Shown piece by piece: positions 1,213 through 10,103 of a stretch of 59,522 bases of DNA. The stretch comes from Deltaproteobacteria bacterium (GTDB taxonomy: Bacteria > Desulfobacterota > GWC2-55-46 > UBA9637): assembly GCA_030690165.1 (NCBI GenBank), contig JAUYHF010000061.1:1-59522 (forward strand). The letters are read 5' to 3'. The number at the start of each line of letters is the position of its first letter. Position 1 is the stretch's first letter. A program made the position numbers and the translations under genes. The notes beneath the pieces are model-generated. The model was given only the letters and a program-made list of their open reading frames with translations. It searched no databases and had not been told where the DNA came from.

Positions 1213-1722
1213 CTACCCTTTTTCAGTCGGTTCTCTTTTTTCAGGACCATTGTATATCCGCAGGACGGTGAATGAGAAGACTAACAGGATTAAAAAACTT
1301 GTTTGAAAGGCAATAAAACTCCATAACTTGAGATACGCAAAGGAGGGTGACACAAATCTTATCAGCCATCCAGCGCTCATATCCCCCAGTCCTGAGAGAA
1401 ATGAGACGATGATTAAAAACAACTTCAAGAACTGATGGATGTTAGAAAAAACGGTTAAGTGATTCACAAGGAGAAGGGCCATTGCAAAAACAAACAGATG
1501 CCAGTGTGTTGCCTCTAAAAGACCAATATATGAGACAGGGTTTTTGAACTCCTCTTCCGAGCCAAGGTAATAGTTCACAATACCGTCGTATGTAAAACCT
1601 ATCCTCTCTGAATAAAGAAGTAAATTAGTAACCCATAGAAGTAAAACATACACAAGGGTAAAAACAAGGATAATTTGCAATAATCTGCTGTTATTAAAAT
1701 CCCCTTTTGTAAGAAATTTCAT
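1213..1722 (-). CDS. Four-helix membrane protein, partner of FMN-binding protein
   Basis: 169 residues with about four hydrophobic helices (near residues 15-37, 73-90, 97-118 and 131-153) and a charged, Lys/Glu-rich C-terminus. Two histidines sit at the start of the second helix (THWHLF), a possible haem or metal site, but no named family is recognised. Its ATG overlaps the stop of the FMN-binding protein gene by 4 nt, so the two are translationally coupled and probably form a functional pair. A membrane redox role is inferred only from this coupling. Confidence 0.7.
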   Translation of the reverse strand: MKFLTKGDFNNSRLLQIILVFTLVYVLLLWVTNLLLYSERIGFTYDGIVNYYLGSEEEFKNPVSYIGLLEATHWHLFVFAMALLLVNHLTVFSNIHQFLKLFLIIVSFLSGLGDMSAGWLIRFVSPSFAYLKLWSFIAFQTSFLILLVFSFTVLRIYNGPEKREPTEKG

Positions 1723-2267
1723 TTCCCCTCCTTCTTGAGGATCTTTAATTCGAATATGGCAAGGATATTCCTTATCGCCCGCGTTATCCCTTCTGATGTT
1801 ATGCTTGCGCCTGAAATGGCGCTTATACCACTTCTTACCCTGAATCTGTCATCCAGGCGTCTGCCTTTGAACAAATCAAGCCATCTCTTTGGAGGAAGAT
1901 ACTCCTCAGGCTCGTAAAATGCAAGGATTTCTATATGCGCGATATCCCCCTTTGGGGTAATGACAAGCATGAAAACCTCTGGCTTTGTCCTCACTATGTG
2001 GCTTTCAAAGACAGTATAGCCTATAACACCATCCTTCCCCTTTGCCATATAATAGGTGAAAATCTTGGAGTTGACTTTAGCCTTTGAAAGCTCCTGAATC
2101 TTTTTTACATCATCATCGTTTAAAAAGACGGTAAGCCTTTCTGTCTCAATGGCTTCGGGAAATGCCTGCTTCAGGGCATCGTCCTTTGTAAGATAGACCT
2201 TGCCTGTTACAGGATTAGTCCATAGTAGAACAACAGCTAATAGCAGTATGGATATGTAAATCTTCAT
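1719..2267 (-). CDS. FMN-binding domain protein, exported
   Basis: 182 residues with a signal-like hydrophobic N-terminus (about residues 3-20) followed by one FMN_bind domain of the NqrC/RnfG type. The flavinylation region reads AISGASITSE (Ser152-Gly-Ala-Ser155-Ile-Thr157). The family usually has Asp-x-x-Ser-Gly-Ala-Thr, so here the leading Asp is Ser and the acceptor Thr is Ser. Covalent FMN attachment at Ser155 or Thr157 is possible but unproven. Placed between a porin and a four-helix membrane protein, it may pass electrons in the periplasm, for example to reduce a metal or porin-delivered substrate (inference). Confidence 0.85.
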   Translation of the reverse strand: MKIYISILLLAVVLLWTNPVTGKVYLTKDDALKQAFPEAIETERLTVFLNDDDVKKIQELSKAKVNSKIFTYYMAKGKDGVIGYTVFESHIVRTKPEVFMLVITPKGDIAHIEILAFYEPEEYLPPKRWLDLFKGRRLDDRFRVRSGISAISGASITSEGITRAIRNILAIFELKILKKEGK

Positions 2268-2314: not shown

Positions 2315-3631
2315 CTAAAATATAAACCCTATCCCGATATTGAACTGGTCAATCTTATTTTCATCCTTTCCAGTGCCCTTACCGGACGGTAGATCAGATG
2401 AAGTATCTTTTTCCTGATAATCCGCCTTTACGATAACATTTGGATACGGCTTGAAGCCTAAACCGATGGTTGTCACCGTCCTGTCAAATGTCTTGTCGCT
2501 CGTCTGGCCTTCAAACACCTCTTTGTGGGTGTTATAATCTTCATACCGCACAAAGGGGGTTATGGCCATTTCCGAGTCGGATTTTATGAGCGGCATGATA
2601 TCATATGCGGCCTCCAAATACCAGCCTTCCACCTCTTTTCCCACCTTTGTTGCTTTGAGCGCGGCATTGCCGTCCATTTCGCCGCTTGTAAAGAGCCCTC
2701 TCAATTGAAGACCTGCCAGACGATACTGGGCATGCACCTCCCAGAGTGTTACATCCCCTTCCATTCCTGAGGTGCCGGACTTATTTTCCGCGTCTCCTGC
2801 ATCGCTGTCAAGCTCACCCGCATAGTATGTTCCGCCCAGGAGAAGCCCTGTGACAGGTTCATAGTTGATGCGAACAACGGTTGCAAAGGCATCGGCATTT
2901 ACCTTTGAGCCTTTCTGCCGTAACTCTCGGATAAAGTTTTTTCCCGCCGGCGTGCCTGTGAGTCCATTTACAAGCGCGGCATTGTATTTGAGCGGCCCTA
3001 TTTGACCATGCGCCATGAGTCCGATTTCCCGCCATGTAGTGGGAATGATATTGGCTTCAATATCCGGTCTCAACACACCATGAAATACCGTCGGCTCATG
3101 ATACTCATTGAGAAAACCGATTGGTATAAGGACAAGACCGGGTCTCAGATTGAACGCAGGATTCAGCAGAAAATCGAGGTAGGTAAATTCAACAAAGACT
3201 TCCGGGACAACTTCCGGATCTGTAGTCGTACCACCCGCTTCAAAACCGGCGTGCTCAAATTCAAGCTCTGTGTTCATGATGATCCAATCATTGAACTTAT
3301 AGCCCGTATAGAGGACAAACCGCGATACATCGGCTATATCCGTCTTTGTTGAGTCAGTATAATTGGAATACCGCACTTCACCGTAACCGCCGATGGAGAG
3401 CCCCTTTTCCATCGAGTAAATCTTCGATGCCGCGGGGCCGAGCCCCATGAAGCTTTCATACTTGGGCTCTGCGACTGCGCCGAGCTTTAATTTCTCCATC
3501 TCCTCGGTCAGCACCTCAATCTGTTTTTTTATCTCTTTAATATCCTCTTCACCGGCATAACCAGACAAAGAAAAACCAACAACAACCAATGTTGTTACAA
3601 CTCCTGTTAAGATTTTTCTAAACCCTCTCAT
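2315..3631 (-). CDS. Outer-membrane porin, phosphate-selective porin O/P-like
   Basis: 438 residues. A cleavable signal peptide (about 1-26, ending SGYA) precedes a short heptad-rich coiled coil (EDIKEIKKQIEVLTEEMEKL). The remainder is made of amphipathic beta strands and ends in Phe, the usual C-terminal signal for BAM-dependent beta barrels. The fold resembles OprO/OprP-type or DUF-type porins of Deltaproteobacteria; the solute is unknown. The gene is preceded by AAAGGAG and lies about 130 bp downstream of a promoter with an overlapping Fur-type box, so iron control is likely (inference). FMN-binding and membrane protein genes follow. Confidence 0.85.
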   Translation of the reverse strand: MRGFRKILTGVVTTLVVVGFSLSGYAGEEDIKEIKKQIEVLTEEMEKLKLGAVAEPKYESFMGLGPAASKIYSMEKGLSIGGYGEVRYSNYTDSTKTDIADVSRFVLYTGYKFNDWIIMNTELEFEHAGFEAGGTTTDPEVVPEVFVEFTYLDFLLNPAFNLRPGLVLIPIGFLNEYHEPTVFHGVLRPDIEANIIPTTWREIGLMAHGQIGPLKYNAALVNGLTGTPAGKNFIRELRQKGSKVNADAFATVVRINYEPVTGLLLGGTYYAGELDSDAGDAENKSGTSGMEGDVTLWEVHAQYRLAGLQLRGLFTSGEMDGNAALKATKVGKEVEGWYLEAAYDIMPLIKSDSEMAITPFVRYEDYNTHKEVFEGQTSDKTFDRTVTTIGLGFKPYPNVIVKADYQEKDTSSDLPSGKGTGKDENKIDQFNIGIGFIF

Positions 3632-3656
3632 AAGTTTATTCTCCTTTGATTTTGTT

Positions 3657-3761
3657 TTATAACTCCGAACCTTGTCCCTGCGAGCTTAAAGCAGGGATAC
3701 TAACTCCGAACCATTCCATGCAGCCTCCTACTACCGGAATATCTAATCTAAGCGCCGACAT
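3657..3761 (-). pseudogene. Decayed 5' end of a DUF2325 gene (34-codon remnant ORF)
   Basis: An ATG at 3761 with AGGAGG 8 nt upstream opens a 34-codon frame ending at 3657. Its middle, IPVVGGCMEW, matches at DNA level the start of the intact DUF2325 genes (ATTGCGGTGGTAGGAGG in the copy at 4708). The promoter and leader upstream are also nearly identical to that copy. After about ten codons the similarity stops at a hairpin flanked by a 12-bp direct repeat. It is best read as a third, truncated copy of the Fur-promoter/DUF2325 cassette. It could still be translated as a leader peptide for the porin mRNA. Confidence 0.55.
3660..3712. repeat. Hairpin flanked by 12-bp direct repeats
   Basis: TAACTCCGAACC occurs at 3660-3671 and again at 3701-3712. 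Between them is a 7-bp stem (TCCCTGC at 3675-3681, GCAGGGA at 3691-3697) with a 9-nt loop. The arrangement resembles a small inserted element with a target duplication, placed exactly where the DUF2325 remnant loses similarity to its paralogues. Confidence 0.6.
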
Positions 3762-3805
3762 CTCCATCACCTCCTTTTGATTGTGATTATTATTTTCATT
3801 TTATT

Positions 3806-3839
3806 GAGAATGATTATCATTTTTAGATTATGCTGTCAA
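3806..3839 (-). promoter_or_regulatory. Sigma70-type promoter with overlapping Fur box (porin side)
   Basis: On the minus strand TTGACA (3839-3834) is followed after 15 bp by GATAAT (3818-3813). A Fur-like 19-mer, GAGAATGATTATCATTTTT at 3806-3824 (plus orientation), covers the -10; I count 15 of 19 matches to the Escherichia coli consensus. Fur-Fe2+ bound here would block RNA polymerase. It drives the truncated DUF2325 leader and then the porin operon. Confidence 0.75.
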
Positions 3840-4005
3840 GTGTTTTTATTAAAGAGCATATGCGCCTTTCGACCCTTCTCCCTTTGCTGCAATCTCCTCC
3901 TGCCATGAACCAGAGACTCCGTTTACTTATGCTTATCTGCTCACCCCATTTGCTGTTTTTGTCATCCTCTTCTACTTTTGTCTTACTATCCTCTCTTTCA
4001 GCCAC
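3823..4005 (-). CDS. Hypothetical 60-residue charged protein
   Basis: GTG start at 4005 with a strong AGGAGG 6 nt upstream, and 60 codons rich in Lys, Arg, Asp and Glu. The centre (KWGEQISISKRSLWFMAGGD) has two Trp and two later Cys. No family is recognised. Its 3' end runs over the -35 and part of the Fur box of the next promoter. It lies downstream of the HMA-like gene and may be the last gene of the DUF2325 transcript beyond the hairpin at 4105-4132. Coding is supported mainly by the ribosome site and amino-acid composition. Confidence 0.4.
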   Translation of the reverse strand: MAEREDSKTKVEEDDKNSKWGEQISISKRSLWFMAGGDCSKGRRVERRICSLIKTLDSII

Positions 4006-4063
4006 ACAAAACCTCCTTTTTTGTTTTTATCCCTATATTACTGGACATATCCGAAGGGTTTTT

Positions 4064-4357
4064 CTAATTTGGTGAAGCATCGAAAGTTCGCTGTATTAAA
4101 AATAGGGGAAGGGGTGAAGAAGCCCCTTCCCCAGGAGGAAGGAAAAAAGAAGAAGACCCCGTCCTTCGCGGGTTTTTCCGTGGAGGCAGCCCAGCATCTC
4201 CACGGAAGCCGGTGTAATTGCTCCCAAAAGGCCAAACCCTAACCCCATCTATCCCTTCAATATGCCCCAGGTGCAAATTGTTCAGGGAATATCTGTCAGG
4301 AATGAATAGCCTTATCCTAAATCTGCCAGGCAACTGGTGGATGATTGCGTATCTCAT
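4064..4357 (-). CDS. HMA_2-like N-terminal domain fragment
   Basis: 97 codons. The first 45 residues resemble the N-terminal HMA_2 domain that precedes some metal P-type ATPases: a beta strand with HQLPGRFRIRL, then a helix and IEGIDGVRVWPFGSNY. From about residue 50 the frame runs into hairpin-forming DNA (4105-4132 and 4178-4205) and becomes low-complexity (PPRKNPRRTGSSSFFLPPGEG). The C-terminal half is therefore probably not native. It could be a truncated gene or a small protein whose true stop was lost. It follows the DUF2325 gene by about 54 nt, in the same transcript. Confidence 0.4.
   Translation of the reverse strand: MRYAIIHQLPGRFRIRLFIPDRYSLNNLHLGHIEGIDGVRVWPFGSNYTGFRGDAGLPPRKNPRRTGSSSFFLPPGEGASSPLPLFLIQRTFDASPN
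4105..4132 (-). terminator. Strong hairpin, Rho-independent terminator on minus strand
   Basis: A perfect 10-bp GC-rich stem (GGGGAAGGGG and complement) with an 8-nt loop. On the minus strand it is followed by TATTTTTAAT, a short U-tract. It sits inside the 3' half of the HMA-like reading frame, downstream of the DUF2325 gene at 4412-4708. It may equally be an inserted repeat. Confidence 0.5.
4178..4205. repeat. Perfect 8-bp inverted repeat
   Basis: CCGTGGAG at 4178-4185 and CTCCACGG at 4198-4205 enclose a 12-nt loop. With the neighbouring hairpin it makes the 3' part of the HMA-like frame strongly structured. Confidence 0.55.
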
Positions 4358-4411
4358 AAGTTTCTAAAACCTTAGTAACAATAAAGCACGCACACAGAAT
4401 ACCTTTTTCAT

Positions 4412-4708
4412 TTAATTGATACTTCTTTCGTTTGTAATCCCCTCAAAGCATCTCTTCAGGCTGGATACACTGCCGGTAGAATGGCACATAAGGACGGGGA
4501 TACCTTCTCTTTTTTTAGATAGGGCTTTTTCCCTGGCATTATGGGATACCCTGTAGGTGAATACGATAATGGCATCCATCCCGCCCAGCCTTTCTTCAAG
4601 CCTTGGGCAATCCCTTTCAAAGTGATGAAGACTAACACCATACCTCACAGCCACCCTCCGGTAATCCCCCCTAAGCTTATCCATACCTCCTACCACCGCA
4701 ATAGACAT
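4412..4708 (-). CDS. DUF2325 protein, copy 1
   Basis: 98 residues, a full-length single-domain DUF2325 protein. Landmarks are an N-terminal beta strand with VVGGMDKL, a central DAIIVFTYRVSHNA segment, and a C-terminal MCHSTGSVSSLKRC. The family has a small alpha/beta fold of unknown biochemical function. Here it is the first gene after a Fur-overlapped promoter, with a good ribosome site (AAAGGAGG), so iron-responsive expression is likely. Its paralogue at 4813-5124 has Cys where this copy has Thr after MCHS. A role in metal or redox sensing in iron uptake is inference from context. Confidence 0.85.
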   Translation of the reverse strand: MSIAVVGGMDKLRGDYRRVAVRYGVSLHHFERDCPRLEERLGGMDAIIVFTYRVSHNAREKALSKKREGIPVLMCHSTGSVSSLKRCFEGITNERSIN

Positions 4709-4748
4709 ACCAACCTCCTTTGAATTTAATTATTATTTTCATCTTATT

Positions 4749-4782
4749 GAGAATGATTATCGTTTTTAAATTATGTTGTCAA
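4749..4782 (-). promoter_or_regulatory. Sigma70-type promoter with overlapping Fur box (DUF2325 copy 1)
   Basis: TTGACA (4782-4777, minus) and GATAAT (4761-4756) are 15 bp apart. The Fur-like 19-mer at 4749-4767 covers the -10, with the same layout and nearly the same bases as the promoters at 3806-3839 and 9057-9090. It starts DUF2325 copy 1 separately from the upstream iron operon. Confidence 0.72.
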
Positions 4783-4812
4783 GTATTTTTATTCATATTT
4801 GTATTCATATTC

Positions 4813-5124
4813 CTATATAACTACATCACTACCTCTTTTAATAGTTTGAACTAACCCATCAAGGCATCTTTTTAAGCTTGATATGCCGCATGAGTGGCAC
4901 ATAAAAACAGGAATATTTGTCTCTTTCCCCTTAGAAAGTGCGATATTTCTGGCGCTATGGGATATTCTGTTTGTAAATATGATAATGGCATCGGCATCCC
5001 CAAGCCTCTCTTTCATGTTCTGGCATTCCCTCTCAAAATGCTTTAGCGTAATATCATATCTTGACGCAACCCTCTTATAATCATTCTTTGCCCTGTCCAT
5101 ACCTCCAATAAGTGTAACGCACAT
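4813..5124 (-). CDS. DUF2325 protein, copy 2
   Basis: 103 residues, clearly paralogous to copy 1 (LIGGMDRAKNDYKRVASRYD; DAIIIFTNRISHSARN; VFMCHSCGISSLKRCLDG). It keeps MCHSCG, giving two Cys and one His close together that could bind metal. It lies 47 nt downstream of the P19 gene on the same strand, with AGGAGG before its ATG, so it is probably in the FTR1-P19 transcript. The short leader in front contains a degenerate copy of the TGAAAATAATAAT motif seen after the Fur promoters. Confidence 0.85.
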   Translation of the reverse strand: MCVTLIGGMDRAKNDYKRVASRYDITLKHFERECQNMKERLGDADAIIIFTNRISHSARNIALSKGKETNIPVFMCHSCGISSLKRCLDGLVQTIKRGSDVVI

Positions 5125-5171
5125 AAAACCTCCTGAATATGATTATTGTTTTCAATATATTGCCAAATTTT

Positions 5172-5711
5172 TTAATACCCGCCCTTTTTACCGGCCCCAA
5201 AAAAGTTAAACTCCCATTCTATCTCGAAGGGCTTGAACCAGTCCCTGACACCGGTCTCTCTATCAGTGTGCCTGCCAAATTCGCCTTTCTTAAGCGGGTT
5301 TTCTACTTTATAGATAACTCTGTATTTTCCAGCGCCAAGCATCTTTACATTGTCGCCATAATGCGGGCCGTCATTCGCCGCCATAGGCATCATAGCCCCT
5401 TCTATCTTCTGGTGTGTATCCAATTTTATGATTGTATAGTGGATGGTAAGATTGGGTATCCATTCCCCTGCTGCAAAACCGTTGGGGTTATTCTCCGCTG
5501 CCTTGATATCGCACTCAAGATGGATATCCGATTCCCCTCTCGGCTTCATAATACCCTTCGGCTCCATTTCAATAGCCTGAAGATACACGGCGGCAATCTC
5601 CATGCCGTAGAGGGACTGGGGAAGTCCTATCGGCGTCTCAAGAGCAAATACCGGCGCATAGAATAACGCCGCCATAATTAGTGCAAGAAATATTGTTCTT
5701 AATGTTTTCAT
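5172..5711 (-). CDS. P19-type periplasmic iron transport protein (Tp34/FetP family)
   Basis: 179 residues with a signal peptide ending near PVFA (about residue 23). The mature domain has family landmarks: GMEIAAVYLQAIEMEP, ESDIHLECDIKA, and MPMAANDGPHYGDN. The Met, His and Glu residues in these motifs form the copper and iron sites of Campylobacter P19 and Escherichia coli FetP. The family binds periplasmic iron together with Cu2+ and works with an FTR1-type permease. FTR1 and a polyferredoxin lie just upstream in the same direction, so this is a complete P19-FTR1 uptake locus, probably Fur-repressed. Confidence 0.9.
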   Translation of the reverse strand: MKTLRTIFLALIMAALFYAPVFALETPIGLPQSLYGMEIAAVYLQAIEMEPKGIMKPRGESDIHLECDIKAAENNPNGFAAGEWIPNLTIHYTIIKLDTHQKIEGAMMPMAANDGPHYGDNVKMLGAGKYRVIYKVENPLKKGEFGRHTDRETGVRDWFKPFEIEWEFNFFGAGKKGGY

Positions 5712-5788
5712 TTCTAAAGCCTCCTTTTTGGGATTCTTTGACTCTCTGTGTTTTGGTGGACACAGCCCACACTACTCCTGCCTACTGC

Positions 5789-6247
5789 TTACTGCCTACT
5801 CATATCAAGCCCTACCCCCTTTCTATCCAGTTCTTTAGCTGTATTCCTTAATGCATCTATAAGATTAACTGTTTGCTTTTTCACATCTGATAGAGGCGCT
5901 TTATTAAACATCGCCTTTCGCAAATCCCCAAAGCCCTTTTCCAGTTCTGTTGCCTTTTTAAGGGAGATATGCCGCCTGACCGCAATCTCCATATTGGCCT
6001 TCTCTCCCTCAAATATGCCGAAATAGGCATCTGCCGCCTTCTCCATTGCATCATTGGCCTTACCTGTCTCATACAACTTCATGGCATCATGCAAGACGAT
6101 CTCAATCTCCATGGCTATACCTGCCCAGGCATCCTGGCCAGCATAGACCCGGCCTGATACCAAAAGGAAAAATAAGATAATACACAATACTACTGCCGGC
6201 TTTATTTTATGCCTTCTTTGAATATAATTTTTATTTTCAATAATCAT
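5789..6247 (-). CDS. Stand-alone paralogue of the FTR1 periplasmic N-domain
   Basis: About 152 residues from the ATG at 6247; an alternative ATG at 6277 overlaps the previous gene by 22 nt. A signal peptide (KPAVVLCIILFFLLVSGRVYAG) precedes a helical domain that aligns along its length with the N-terminal region of FTR1 in this operon: DAYFGIFEG against EAYFNAFEG, FGDLRKAM against FGDIRKAM, and a final helix ending in Lys/Glu repeats. Such EfeO/cFTR1-like helical domains have acidic residues proposed to bind iron. The start is uncertain because AAGAAGG lies just ahead of an ATA codon rather than an ATG. Confidence 0.75.
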   Translation of the reverse strand: MIIENKNYIQRRHKIKPAVVLCIILFFLLVSGRVYAGQDAWAGIAMEIEIVLHDAMKLYETGKANDAMEKAADAYFGIFEGEKANMEIAVRRHISLKKATELEKGFGDLRKAMFNKAPLSDVKKQTVNLIDALRNTAKELDRKGVGLDMSRQ

Positions 6248-6255
6248 TGAGTTTT

Positions 6256-7578
6256 TTAAAATAGCGCCATATTCCATGCCGCGGCTACCAACCCTATTCC
6301 AAGTATATTCGGTATCATTGCCTGGCTAAACAACCCATGAAGCCTTGCAGCCATATATAAACTCCATATACCGCCGCCTGTAAAAAGAGCCCACTGGATT
6401 GTATGTACTGTTTCTTTGTTTAAACCAAGACTGACCAATGACTGGAAAAGTATCAAGCCGAGACCCAATACAAGGGATATCAGAGCAACCGGCGTGTATA
6501 AATAACCCAATCTTGCTACCTTTGTCATAACATCCTCTTTTTCCCTCAGCATAAAGGCAGACAGCAACGTTAATAGGAACAGAACAACAGTAATAGATAT
6601 CATACTTAACAGCATAAAGCTTGTTATGGATGTAAAATCAAGCCAGTTAAATACCTCCCCTGCCTCTTGATAATTAACCATAATCCACCACGGGCCGCTT
6701 TTTCCTATAAAATCTCCTAAACTGTAATTTAATAAAAAACTGCCAATCGCCTGTTTATATTGTATGTAAATTGGGTTTACCTGCCAGTGGAAAGCGCCTA
6801 ATGCAAGGCCTGTTGCTAAAAATAGAAATAACACTTCCAAGATGTTCGGTTCCCTTGTTTTTATTTCTTCTATCTCAAGCCCGGGACGTCTTATATTCAG
6901 ATGCAGAGAGCTGGACGTCTCTGGATTTACACATCTGAAGCACTCAATACAGTTGGAGCTTGCAACCTTGTTTGTTGTATTTATAAAGGTGGGGCAGACA
7001 CAACCTTTTCCGTTCCCGCCATTTTTCTCAAAGCTTACAGCGCCAAGCCTTGAAAATATGCCGAGGAGCGGACCTATGGGACAGAGATACCGGCACCACG
7101 GCCTTCGCCCGCTCGCATAAACAAAGCCAACTATCGCAGCTAAAACCATTGTCCCTCCAAGAACTTCCATAGCAGCCGGAGGATAATCTCTGGCGCCTAT
7201 AAGCTGGGCAAGGGTTGTAATAAAAATGAAACTGACCACGGGCATACCTTCCCACCGCATCCACCTCGGGATAGGCCTATTCAGCCCCTTTCTGCCTGCG
7301 TATTCGCTCAATGCACCCTGCGGGCACAAAAGTCCGCACCAGAGTCTTCCAAACAAAATCACTGAAAGCAGTACCAACGGAAACCACAACCCCCATATCA
7401 AAAACCTTGATATAAGCGTGAAGTTGTTCCATATCGCATCATCCTCTGCCGGCAATGACAAAAAGGGCGGAATAAAGATTAGCGCCATAAAGACAACAAA
7501 CATCCCCATATGAATATATCCAAATCTTTCTCTGTTCCTTACAAAGAAATTTTCAATGAGTCCGGCAACATTATTCAT
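6256..7578 (-). CDS. NapH-like polytopic 4Fe-4S membrane protein of the P19/FTR1 locus
   Basis: 440 residues, many membrane helices. CGLLCPQG (about residue 87) and CRYLCPIGP (about 162) are the CxxxCP motifs of NapH/RdxA-type proteins. A ferredoxin-like Cys set follows (GCVCPTF, then CIECFRCVNPE). The second half has four to five more helices with no motif. Membrane ferredoxins beside P19/FTR1 are proposed to supply electrons for iron reduction or transport. Its start lies one base past the FTR1 stop, so the two are coupled. The C-terminal helical half is longer than in plain NapH proteins. Confidence 0.85.
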   Translation of the reverse strand: MNNVAGLIENFFVRNRERFGYIHMGMFVVFMALIFIPPFLSLPAEDDAIWNNFTLISRFLIWGLWFPLVLLSVILFGRLWCGLLCPQGALSEYAGRKGLNRPIPRWMRWEGMPVVSFIFITTLAQLIGARDYPPAAMEVLGGTMVLAAIVGFVYASGRRPWCRYLCPIGPLLGIFSRLGAVSFEKNGGNGKGCVCPTFINTTNKVASSNCIECFRCVNPETSSSLHLNIRRPGLEIEEIKTREPNILEVLFLFLATGLALGAFHWQVNPIYIQYKQAIGSFLLNYSLGDFIGKSGPWWIMVNYQEAGEVFNWLDFTSITSFMLLSMISITVVLFLLTLLSAFMLREKEDVMTKVARLGYLYTPVALISLVLGLGLILFQSLVSLGLNKETVHTIQWALFTGGGIWSLYMAARLHGLFSQAMIPNILGIGLVAAAWNMALF

Positions 7579-7579
7579 A

Positions 7580-9031
7580 TCAGCCCTTCTTTATATTTTT
7601 TTCCAATTCCAAAAACACATCTTCAAGCCCTTTTGCAAGTTTATCCATATGCCCTGCCACCTCATGCACCTTTTTATCTATCTCTACAAGGTGTTTTCTT
7701 ATCTCATCCGTCTCCCTGTCTGCAATTCCGCTGGATAACCCGTGGCATATCATGGCATGCCGGCTCACATCGTCTAATATTTCATGGATGCTGTTTATAT
7801 CAGACTCTATATGGGTTATGTCCTTTGCAACTGTTATCGTTTCTTTGTAAGGCCTCAAAACAAGGCTATAAATAACAGCTGCTATAAGCAATGCAACAAG
7901 ACCCCCCTGAAGTAATATCCCTTCCCATGTCGGGTATATGCCCAACAAACCTATTGTTGGAAATCCTTCAATGTATGTAGAAGAAATCCATTCAGCCTCC
8001 TGCAGTTCCAATATCCCCTTTCCTGCAAATGTAAAGGCAAGATAATAAAGGAATGCGGATGTTACAGCGAAAAAAGGGCCTATTGGAATCCTGACGCTTC
8101 CATATTTAATCAGGATAAATAGACCAATGAGACAGAGAGAGCCCGCGGCAAATCCAGCAATGATTGCGCTGCCATTACCGTCTGATGTGGAATACAATGC
8201 CTGATAAAAAAGTATTGTCTCAGCGCCCTCGCGATAAACAGATAGAAATGCGGCAAAGCCCAGCGCAAGGATATTGCCTTTGCTCAGAGAACTCTCCACC
8301 TTTGATTTTATGTAATGCTGCCACCTTGCGATCTCTATCTTTGTTATAAGCCAGTAGCTCACATAAAACAAAACCGCAGTGGCAAATAGCATTGTAACCC
8401 CTTCAATGGCCTCCCTGCCGGCGCCGCTGATGGTGATTACTGTCTGGAGAAGAACAGCGGTAACAAGACTTGCAATGATGGCCGCTACCGCGCCCTTATA
8501 TACTGTTCTAACCTTATCCTTCTGCCCTGCCTTTGTAAGGTAGGCTGTAAGCGCGCTTATTACAAGGATTGCCTCAAAACCCTCCCGTAAGATTATTATG
8601 AACGAATTAAAGAATGCGGCGTATGGCGACCCTTCCTTCCCCTCACCCTTTTCCAGGAGTTTTTTGGCGTCCTTTTCCAATGCCCTTGCAAGCAGGCCAA
8701 TTTTTTTCTTTATATCATCCGCAGGCGCATTTGCAGCCATAGCCTTTCTTATATCGCCGAACATGGATTCCAGAAGAGTCTTCCTGTCTGTGGAGATATA
8801 TAAGCCCACAGCAGTCTCCATACCGCTTCCTTCAAAGGCATTAAAATATGCCTCAGATATAGATGCCTTTGCATTATCTATCCTTCCCTCTGAGTACGCA
8901 TCCGCGCCTCTATTCAAAATACCCTCTATTTCATGACCAACATCTGTCCATCTCTTTTCACCTGCAAAGACAGATGCAGAAACAAAAAATATAAATACAA
9001 CAGCAATGCAAAATGTTCGCCTAAATGACAT
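7580..9031 (-). CDS. FTR1-family high-affinity iron permease with periplasmic N-domain
   Basis: 483 residues. Signal peptide to about residue 23, a helical periplasmic domain (about 25-130), then a seven-helix FTR1 permease with both signature motifs: REGFE at 149-153 and REGAE at 267-271. A soluble helical tail (about 400-483) with several His follows the last helix. Unlike EfeU, this permease class works with P19 and membrane ferredoxins. It is the first gene after the Fur-overlapped promoter at 9057-9090, with GGGAGAG as ribosome site. The N-domain is duplicated as a separate gene at 5789-6247. Confidence 0.93.
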   Translation of the reverse strand: MSFRRTFCIAVVFIFFVSASVFAGEKRWTDVGHEIEGILNRGADAYSEGRIDNAKASISEAYFNAFEGSGMETAVGLYISTDRKTLLESMFGDIRKAMAANAPADDIKKKIGLLARALEKDAKKLLEKGEGKEGSPYAAFFNSFIIILREGFEAILVISALTAYLTKAGQKDKVRTVYKGAVAAIIASLVTAVLLQTVITISGAGREAIEGVTMLFATAVLFYVSYWLITKIEIARWQHYIKSKVESSLSKGNILALGFAAFLSVYREGAETILFYQALYSTSDGNGSAIIAGFAAGSLCLIGLFILIKYGSVRIPIGPFFAVTSAFLYYLAFTFAGKGILELQEAEWISSTYIEGFPTIGLLGIYPTWEGILLQGGLVALLIAAVIYSLVLRPYKETITVAKDITHIESDINSIHEILDDVSRHAMICHGLSSGIADRETDEIRKHLVEIDKKVHEVAGHMDKLAKGLEDVFLELEKNIKKG

Positions 9032-9056
9032 TTTTACTCTCCCTATACATTATAAT

Positions 9057-9090
9057 GAAAATGAATATCATTTTTAAATTATATTGTCAA
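9057..9090 (-). promoter_or_regulatory. Sigma70-type promoter with overlapping Fur box (FTR1 operon)
   Basis: TTGACA (9090-9085, minus) and GATATT (9069-9064) with a 15-bp spacer. The Fur-like 19-mer at 9057-9075 has about 14 of 19 consensus matches. It shares its -35, spacer length and core with the promoters at 3806 and 4749. It initiates the ftr1-ferredoxin-N-domain-p19-DUF2325 transcript. Confidence 0.72.
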
Positions 9091-9152
9091 GTGTTTTCTA
9101 TTCTGCCGGCAAACAGTTTGACAGTAATTTCAAAAGCAGGTATCATCAGACC

Positions 9153-10103
9153 ATGATAGAGAAACCCATAACCATAGTATCCATAGGCGGCAATACACTT
9201 ATCAGGAAGGGAGAAAAAGGTGAGATTGAAGAGCAGTTTGAGCATACGGAAAGATGTATGACCTATGTTGCGCGGCTGGCTGCGCAAGGTTTTAGAATAG
9301 CCATAACCCATGGAAACGGCCCTATCGTTGGAAATATCGTTATAAGAAATGAGGCTGCAAAGGATATTATCCCGGCCATGCCCCTTTATATATGTAACGC
9401 CGATTCAGGGGGCGGCATAGGTTTTATGATTCAGCAGACTTTGTATAATCAGTTAAAACAGCTAAATATAAAAAGAAGTGTGGCTACTGTTATTACCCAG
9501 GTTGTGATTGATAAAAATGACACGGCATTTTCTCATCCAACAAAACCAATAGGGCCTTTTTACACAAAGGAAGAAGCAGTAAAAAACCAAAAGGAGAAAG
9601 GCTGGACAATTGTGGAAGACAGCAACAGGGGCTACAGAAGGGTTGTCCCCTCCCCTAAGCCGCTAAAGGTTGTTGAGGCGGATGTTATAAAAAAACTGGT
9701 ATTGGACGGCATTATTGTGATTGCTGCCGGCGGCGGAGGGCTACCTGTAGCGGAATCGCCGGATGGCAGTCTAAAAGCCATGGATGCTGTGATAGATAAG
9801 GATTTGGCAACTGCTGTATTGGCCAAAGAGATAAAGGCAGAAACATTTATAGACCTGACATCAATTGATAAGGTTTATATAAATTTTGGCAAACCCAACC
9901 AAACCGGATTAGACAAACTTACTCTTTCAGAGGTCAGAAAATACCTTGATGCCGGAGAATTTGCCCCCGGAAGCATGGGGCCTAAGATAGAAGCAGCCAT
10001 TGAATTTCTTGAGGCAGGTGGCAAAGAGGTTATAATAACAACGCCGGAACTTCTTGAATCGGCAATAGAAGGAAAGGCCGGTACGAGGATTACTCCATTG
10101 TAA
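9153..10103 (+). CDS. arcC: Carbamate kinase
   Basis: 316 residues from the ATG at 9153, matching the usual length; the longer upstream frame overlaps the divergent Fur promoter and lacks homology. Landmarks are VSIGGNTL near the start, ITHGNGPIVG, GIGFMIQQTL, IIVIAAGGGGLPV and AVIDKDLATAVLA, covering the phosphate- and nucleotide-binding segments of the amino acid kinase fold. The enzyme interconverts carbamoyl phosphate plus ADP with ATP, CO2 and ammonia. No arcA or arcB is nearby, so its role may be purine, agmatine or carbamoyl-phosphate related. It is the only plus-strand gene in the first 31 kb. Confidence 0.92.
   Translation: MIEKPITIVSIGGNTLIRKGEKGEIEEQFEHTERCMTYVARLAAQGFRIAITHGNGPIVGNIVIRNEAAKDIIPAMPLYICNADSGGGIGFMIQQTLYNQLKQLNIKRSVATVITQVVIDKNDTAFSHPTKPIGPFYTKEEAVKNQKEKGWTIVEDSNRGYRRVVPSPKPLKVVEADVIKKLVLDGIIVIAAGGGGLPVAESPDGSLKAMDAVIDKDLATAVLAKEIKAETFIDLTSIDKVYINFGKPNQTGLDKLTLSEVRKYLDAGEFAPGSMGPKIEAAIEFLEAGGKEVIITTPELLESAIEGKAGTRITPL

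Follow-up and report, generated by a model that had tools for sequence, protein, structure and literature searches.

Three sigma70-type promoters, designated S1, S2 and S3, appear to place an iron-uptake cluster of two modules under Fur repression, with secondary Fur-type boxes inside the operon; S3 would be inherited, and S1 and S2 would descend from one duplication. We give this explanation as a whole, including the division of the locus into an FTR1-Fer4_5-N-domain-P19-DUF2325 module and a porin-FMN_bind-169 aa module, a probability of roughly 0.7 on the strength of sequence comparisons. The window analysed (59,522 nucleotides) is an entire contig (G000:C61) from a genome of 2.2 Mb comprising 70 contigs.

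The minus strand carries, in order, genes for FTR1, Fer4_5, the N-domain protein, P19, two DUF2325 proteins, a porin-like protein, FMN_bind and a 169-aa membrane protein (Table 1). The FTR1 permease and P19 lie in one cluster on the same strand, two genes apart, which is the arrangement of a P19/FTR1 cluster. The closest named match of P19 (78%), taken as a lead only, belongs to a Nitrospirae MAG. The N-domain gene had no Pfam match at 0.001 (only a match below cut-off at 0.038), the 169-aa protein had no Pfam match, and our literature search yielded no paper addressing DUF2325 function by title. Two other open frames were noted. We rejected the 34-codon frame after S1 as a gene: it has no Pfam match and contains both copies of a 12-bp repeat; these two TAACTCCGAACC copies (window 3660-3712) flank a possible hairpin and may represent a small inserted repeat. 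A 97-aa frame (4064-4357), also without a Pfam match, is perhaps a gene remnant, and we take its first part to resemble the start of a heavy-metal P-type ATPase.

Table 1. Features of the iron-uptake locus (window coordinates) and of Com-like genes in other loci.
Feature	Position	Strand	Basis or remark
169-aa membrane protein of porin module	1213-1722	-	adjoins FMN_bind in 6 of 8 relatives examined
FMN_bind protein	1719-2267	-	PF04205, 4e-6
Beta-barrel outer-membrane protein (porin-like)	2315-3631	-	PF21620 and PF13505, both below cut-off
Short open frame (34 codons) following S1, unlikely to be a gene	3657-3761	-	start resembles that of the G003 N-domain gene
75-nt direct repeat, copy holding S1	3776-3850		89% identical to 4719-4793
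Second Fur-type box of S1	3778-3798	-	18/21; 27 bp from first box
S1, promoter head before porin operon	3805-3839	-	Fur-type box 3805-3825, 19/21
Possible intrinsic terminator between DUF2325 and porin units	4105-4132	-	consensus scan, whose total of terminator-like sites was not above shuffles
DUF2325 copy 1	4412-4708	-	PF10087, 3.8e-20
75-nt direct repeat, copy holding S2	4719-4793		89% identical to 3776-3850
Second Fur-type box of S2	4721-4741	-	17/21; 27 bp from first box; adjoins Shine-Dalgarno
S2, promoter head before DUF2325 copy 1	4748-4782	-	Fur-type box 4748-4768, 18/21
DUF2325 copy 2	4813-5124	-	PF10087, 5.8e-26
Internal Fur-type box before DUF2325 copy 2	5134-5154	-	18/21; TTGGCA upstream (5166-5161)
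P19/Tpd-type periplasmic iron protein	5172-5711	-	PF10634, 8.5e-63
N-domain gene, paralogue of FTR1 N-terminus	5789-6277	-	tblastn overlap with FTR1 N-terminus
Internal Fur-type box at start of N-domain gene	6219-6239	-	17/21
Fer4_5 (NapH-like) membrane ferredoxin	6256-7578	-	PF12801, 2.3e-13
FTR1/EfeU-type iron permease with N-terminal domain	7580-9031	-	PF03239, 9.7e-31; TIGR00145, 4.9e-36 but below its cut-off
S3, promoter head of FTR1 operon	9056-9090	-	TTGACA 9090-9085, 15 bp, GATATT inside Fur-type box 9056-9076, 19/21
Com-like genes in other loci	L034 3649-3834; L071 1344-1697; L231; L233; L037 near 5200		PF10122 above cut-off in L071, below in L034; rest by eye

The first-pass annotation had reported three near-identical promoters here, and we found all three on the minus strand within 1 bp of the positions given; a 35-bp pattern drawn from them fits each without mismatch and matched none of 100 dinucleotide shuffles. 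The described architecture, with TTGACA, a 15-bp spacer and a -10 lying inside a Fur-type box, was likewise borne out, the -10 reading GATAAT in S1 and S2 and GATATT in S3, and TTGACA ending 8 nt ahead of a 21-bp box in each case. Since the 21-bp Fur pattern used is a literature consensus, independent of S1-S3, and this outside yardstick matches, the sites look like Fur boxes. The reading of S1-S3 as sigma70-type promoters with a predicted Fur box over the -10 is well supported by sequence, with the qualification that the -10 hexamers are putative consensus matches at a short spacer, and that AATCAT at 18 bp offers S1 and S2 an alternative -10.

Sites scoring at least 17/21 occur in the window only at 3778, 3805, 4721, 4748, 5134, 6219, 9050 and 9056 (two of these overlapping), against about 0.15 expected per strand. 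Allowing at most 3 mismatches, there are 7 sites genome-wide (1 in the reversed control), and 5 of them fall in this locus; the others precede feoB, between fur and feoB, and a gene for a Com-like zinc-ribbon protein. The other strong site (C55:87675) has a different layout, with TTGACA, 16 bp and TATTAT upstream of the box. The Fur pattern was also matched in 59 of 62 genomes of the class. A Fur box preceded by TTGACA at a distance of exactly 8 nt occurred at 31 sites in 21 of the 62 genomes, with unrelated spacers and none in the control; this set was selected for TTGACA, and when 29 boxes were chosen without regard to it (30 less one lost at a contig edge), 4 had TTGACA at a distance of 8 nt, 7 had it within 7-9 nt, and in 6 cases the distances were scattered. 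On these counts the arrangement is a common, widespread promoter layout in the class, though not the sole one.

The leader segment TGAAAATAATAAT, which the first-pass annotation had placed after S1 and S2 with weaker copies ahead of the N-domain gene and of DUF2325 copy 2, was found at all of these places; its pattern occurs at exactly these 4 places in the window (0.33 expected), and S3 lacks it. We correct the earlier description in one respect: the segment forms the left-hand portion of a 21-bp Fur-like palindrome (17-18/21), that is, by its sequence, a second, weaker or degenerate Fur-type box. The leader boxes score below the promoter boxes, and position 8 is A instead of G in every one read in G000, G003 and a G008 remnant, and likewise in G017, which may mean decay or weaker Fur binding. 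Those before DUF2325 copy 2 and the N-domain gene lie at gene starts inside the operon, in the position of internal operators, co-transcription across them being judged from gene spacing. As for the N-domain gene itself, the ATG used by G003 has been lost (ATA at the matching place) and the nearest in-frame ATGs are at 6277 or 6244; therefore the box at 6219-6239 now falls inside the coding frame.

Comparison with relatives revealed boxes at matching junctions. Among 7 loci having the N-domain gene, a box precedes it in 5 (G000, G003, G012, G027 and G037) and none was seen in G019 or L083; just after P19, a box is present in 4 of 8 loci (G000, G003, G019 and G027) and none was seen in G008, G012, G037 or L083. 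The better ones among them (19-20/21) precede the N-domain gene in G012 and G037 and follow P19 in G019 and G027; the G027 N-domain box scores 17/21. Other families carry internal Fur-type boxes at these junctions as well, which makes the leader box old. Among 80 named loci a 17/21 site immediately behind P19 turned up in L141 alone, which is weak evidence of absence, as those loci differ in base composition, gene order and Fur consensus. The internal boxes of the locus lack TTGACA. In 12 internal boxes read, positions -16 to -11 most often hold T (7-10 of 12); a T-tract as class-wide substitute for the -35 was rejected, a T6 run from -17 or -16 occurring in only 3 of 29 boxes chosen regardless of position, and it is kept as a lead. 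In G008 (L033 4943-4963) we observed an N-domain-type leader box and Shine-Dalgarno with no N-domain gene behind, perhaps a leader left after gene loss.

S1 and S2 align over 75 nt without gaps at 89% identity, or at 81 of 94 positions with gaps, and have in common the upstream bases, the spacer, the 6-bp gap between the boxes, the second box and the Shine-Dalgarno. Such identity beyond the motif positions was found for the S1-S2 pair only. These alignments indicate that S1 and S2 are true duplicates, and recent copying is well supported for this pair alone; its direction and age we infer. S3 matches the promoter of FTR1 in G003 (43/48) and in G008 (65/85, including flank), so that by alignment it is the inherited FTR1 promoter. 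S1, in turn, looks composite: its head resembles the G003 FTR1 promoter (54/62) and its leader the leader and start of the G003 N-domain gene (44/48), a better match than that to the window's own N-domain leader (27/35), which is at the shuffle limit. A possible relic of a DUF2325 gene after S1 was discarded, as 16 of 18 bases match DUF2325 copy 1 with a score of 26 against a maximum of 27 in 300 shuffles.

Gene order places these promoters in context. The carbamate kinase gene is 77-83% identical in G003, G004, G006 and G007. In G006 one Fur-type promoter is all that lies between it and a small Com-like gene followed by the porin module; the stretches read beside it in G003, G004 and G007 hold no Fur-type box of at least 17/21. 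In G004 a single further gene lies between it and pirin (91% to that of the window), so that no iron genes intervene, and in G003 the FTR1 operon sits elsewhere in the genome, next to a gene that is presumably cysS. Because of this gene order, S3 and S1 are, on the evidence of these four genomes, at the edges of two iron modules that some relatives have beside carbamate kinase and others lack, and that recombination between promoter repeats may perhaps have moved. The G000 and G006 flanks, without the promoter, align modestly (5 of 500 shuffles were as good). In 8 relatives examined, Fur-type boxes lie upstream of the porin operons of G006, G017, G018, G019, G020 and G030; that of G022 has only a 16/21 site, and that of G012 is too near a contig end to tell.

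The first-pass annotation had proposed that a promoter-leader cassette was duplicated and spread along the locus. That proposal holds for S1 and S2, joined by their 75-nt repeat, and fails for S3, which is inherited and without a leader box, and for the leader, which is older and sits at gene junctions. In its full form, with one cassette giving rise to S1, S2 and S3 and decayed copies elsewhere, it draws some support from the 18 bases outside the -35 and the box: S1 and S2 match the G003 FTR1 promoter there at 15/18 and 14/18, as high as S3 does (14/18), while the same bases compared with S1-S3 give 3-13 for 11 other promoters of the class, 10-12 for the G008 FTR1 promoter and 11-13 for the G006 porin promoter. 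We nevertheless consider it unlikely, since the counterparts of S3 in G003 and G008 and the like promoter before the G006 porin indicate that the layout predates the window, the layout is widespread in the class and the internal boxes are older, at fixed junctions in other families. A whole-cassette origin or local copying of S3 was rejected on two grounds: the FTR1 genes of G003 and G008 have similar promoters ahead of them, and S3 is without a leader box. Because the layout is common to distant relatives, only part of the promoter likeness would come from recent local copying. The opposite view, that the likeness is purely convergent and stems only from a -35 and a Fur box fixed by function, agrees with the unrelated spacers behind this layout in many genomes, but the 81/94 identity of S1 and S2, extending to non-motif positions, already refutes it for that pair, and as a general account we find it still harder to credit.

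The leader segment could instead act in RNA, as an A+U-rich translation enhancer or small-RNA target. It does immediately precede the Shine-Dalgarno, and at position 8 it deviates from the Fur consensus in G000, G003 and G008; strong Fur-type palindromes occupy the same place in G012, G019, G027 and G037, however, no Rfam match was found to E 1 over 3500-9300, and folds of 4 leaders were within those of shuffles. A role in RNA in place of a DNA operator therefore seems doubtful. Members of the Fur family such as Zur, PerR and Mur have similar boxes, and one of these might use the sites; against this, a single FUR-family gene (on G000:C13, E 2.3e-37) was found in a genome rated 100% complete, and one of the seven best sites precedes feoB, making another regulator very improbable. 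Our preferred reading, Fur-repressed S1-S3 with one local duplication, has points against it as well: the 15-bp spacer is short, C55:87675 is laid out differently, the leader boxes are weaker and carry A at position 8, G019 has no internal box at its N-domain gene and L083 none at either junction, and among the 29 boxes chosen without regard to TTGACA only 4 have it at exactly 8 nt and 7 at 7-9 nt.

Under this reading, the only recognisable Fur-family repressor would control both modules. With iron plentiful, Fur-Fe2+ on S1-S3 would cover the -10 and block RNA polymerase, and the internal boxes would probably repress individual genes further, whether as internal operators, as roadblocks or as weak internal promoters. 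Fur binding, iron response, the choice of -10 and the role of the internal boxes are all predictions from the sequence. In S1 and S2 the leader box follows the promoter box 27 bp further downstream; ahead of the N-domain gene and of DUF2325 copy 2 it stands by itself inside the operon. A promoter head may have become joined to an internal-box leader, and one duplication of about 75 bp would then have produced S1 and S2.

The usual picture of Fur is of an on-off switch acting where an operon begins, and classical Fur-repressed sigma70 promoters carry a 19-21-bp Fur box over the -10. S1-S3 resemble these in having a box over the -10 and a TTGACA -35 upstream of iron-uptake genes, and differ in the fixed 8-nt distance from TTGACA to the box (15 bp to GATAAT) and in having five of the seven best sites of the genome gathered within 5.3 kb. 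We offer, as a speculation more apt to fail than to hold, that the class possesses a type of FTR1-P19 operon with a chain of internal Fur operators at several gene starts and a T-tract replacing the -35, in which Fur meters expression gene by gene and not only at the head, and in which recombination between boxes makes new promoter-leader joints such as S1 and S2. With five of the seven best sites in one locus, some at recurring internal junctions, the cluster would be a natural test case for such metering, and it suggests how Fur boxes can serve as joints for recombining promoters and leaders. Our literature search on internal or tandem Fur boxes yielded no paper on this locus type.

Two known systems come close. 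The C. jejuni P19 operon (1649-1656) is likewise of the P19/FTR1 (FetMP) type with a Fur box upstream, and the sections of the source dealing with it describe one Fur box with one putative primary start site upstream, and no outer-membrane receptor in the cluster (PMC6083913). Here, by comparison with those sections, boxes recur at internal gene starts, N-domain and DUF2325 genes are added and a Fur-type porin operon adjoins; two DUF2325 genes and then the porin module stand where C. jejuni has downstream ABC permeases, an ATPase and thioredoxins (PMC6083913). The porin module under S1 could supply the outer-membrane step absent from that cluster. In Sphingobium SYK-6, a Fur box lies upstream of each gene of the tonB2-fiuA operon, and Fur bound upstream of fiuA is proposed, in the relevant part of the report, to interrupt transcription from the tonB2 promoter (PMC7376174). 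The genes described in that part are TonB genes (PMC7376174), and the internal boxes found here differ in having no TTGACA and in returning at matching junctions from family to family.

Porin genes adjoin the FTR1-P19 operon both here (2315-3631) and in G003, where an OprB-family porin (L032 4344-5705) directly follows P19, making such genes candidates for the missing outer-membrane step. We also observed, in several loci, a small gene for a Com-like zinc-ribbon protein behind a Fur-type box, in many cases immediately ahead of the porin module.
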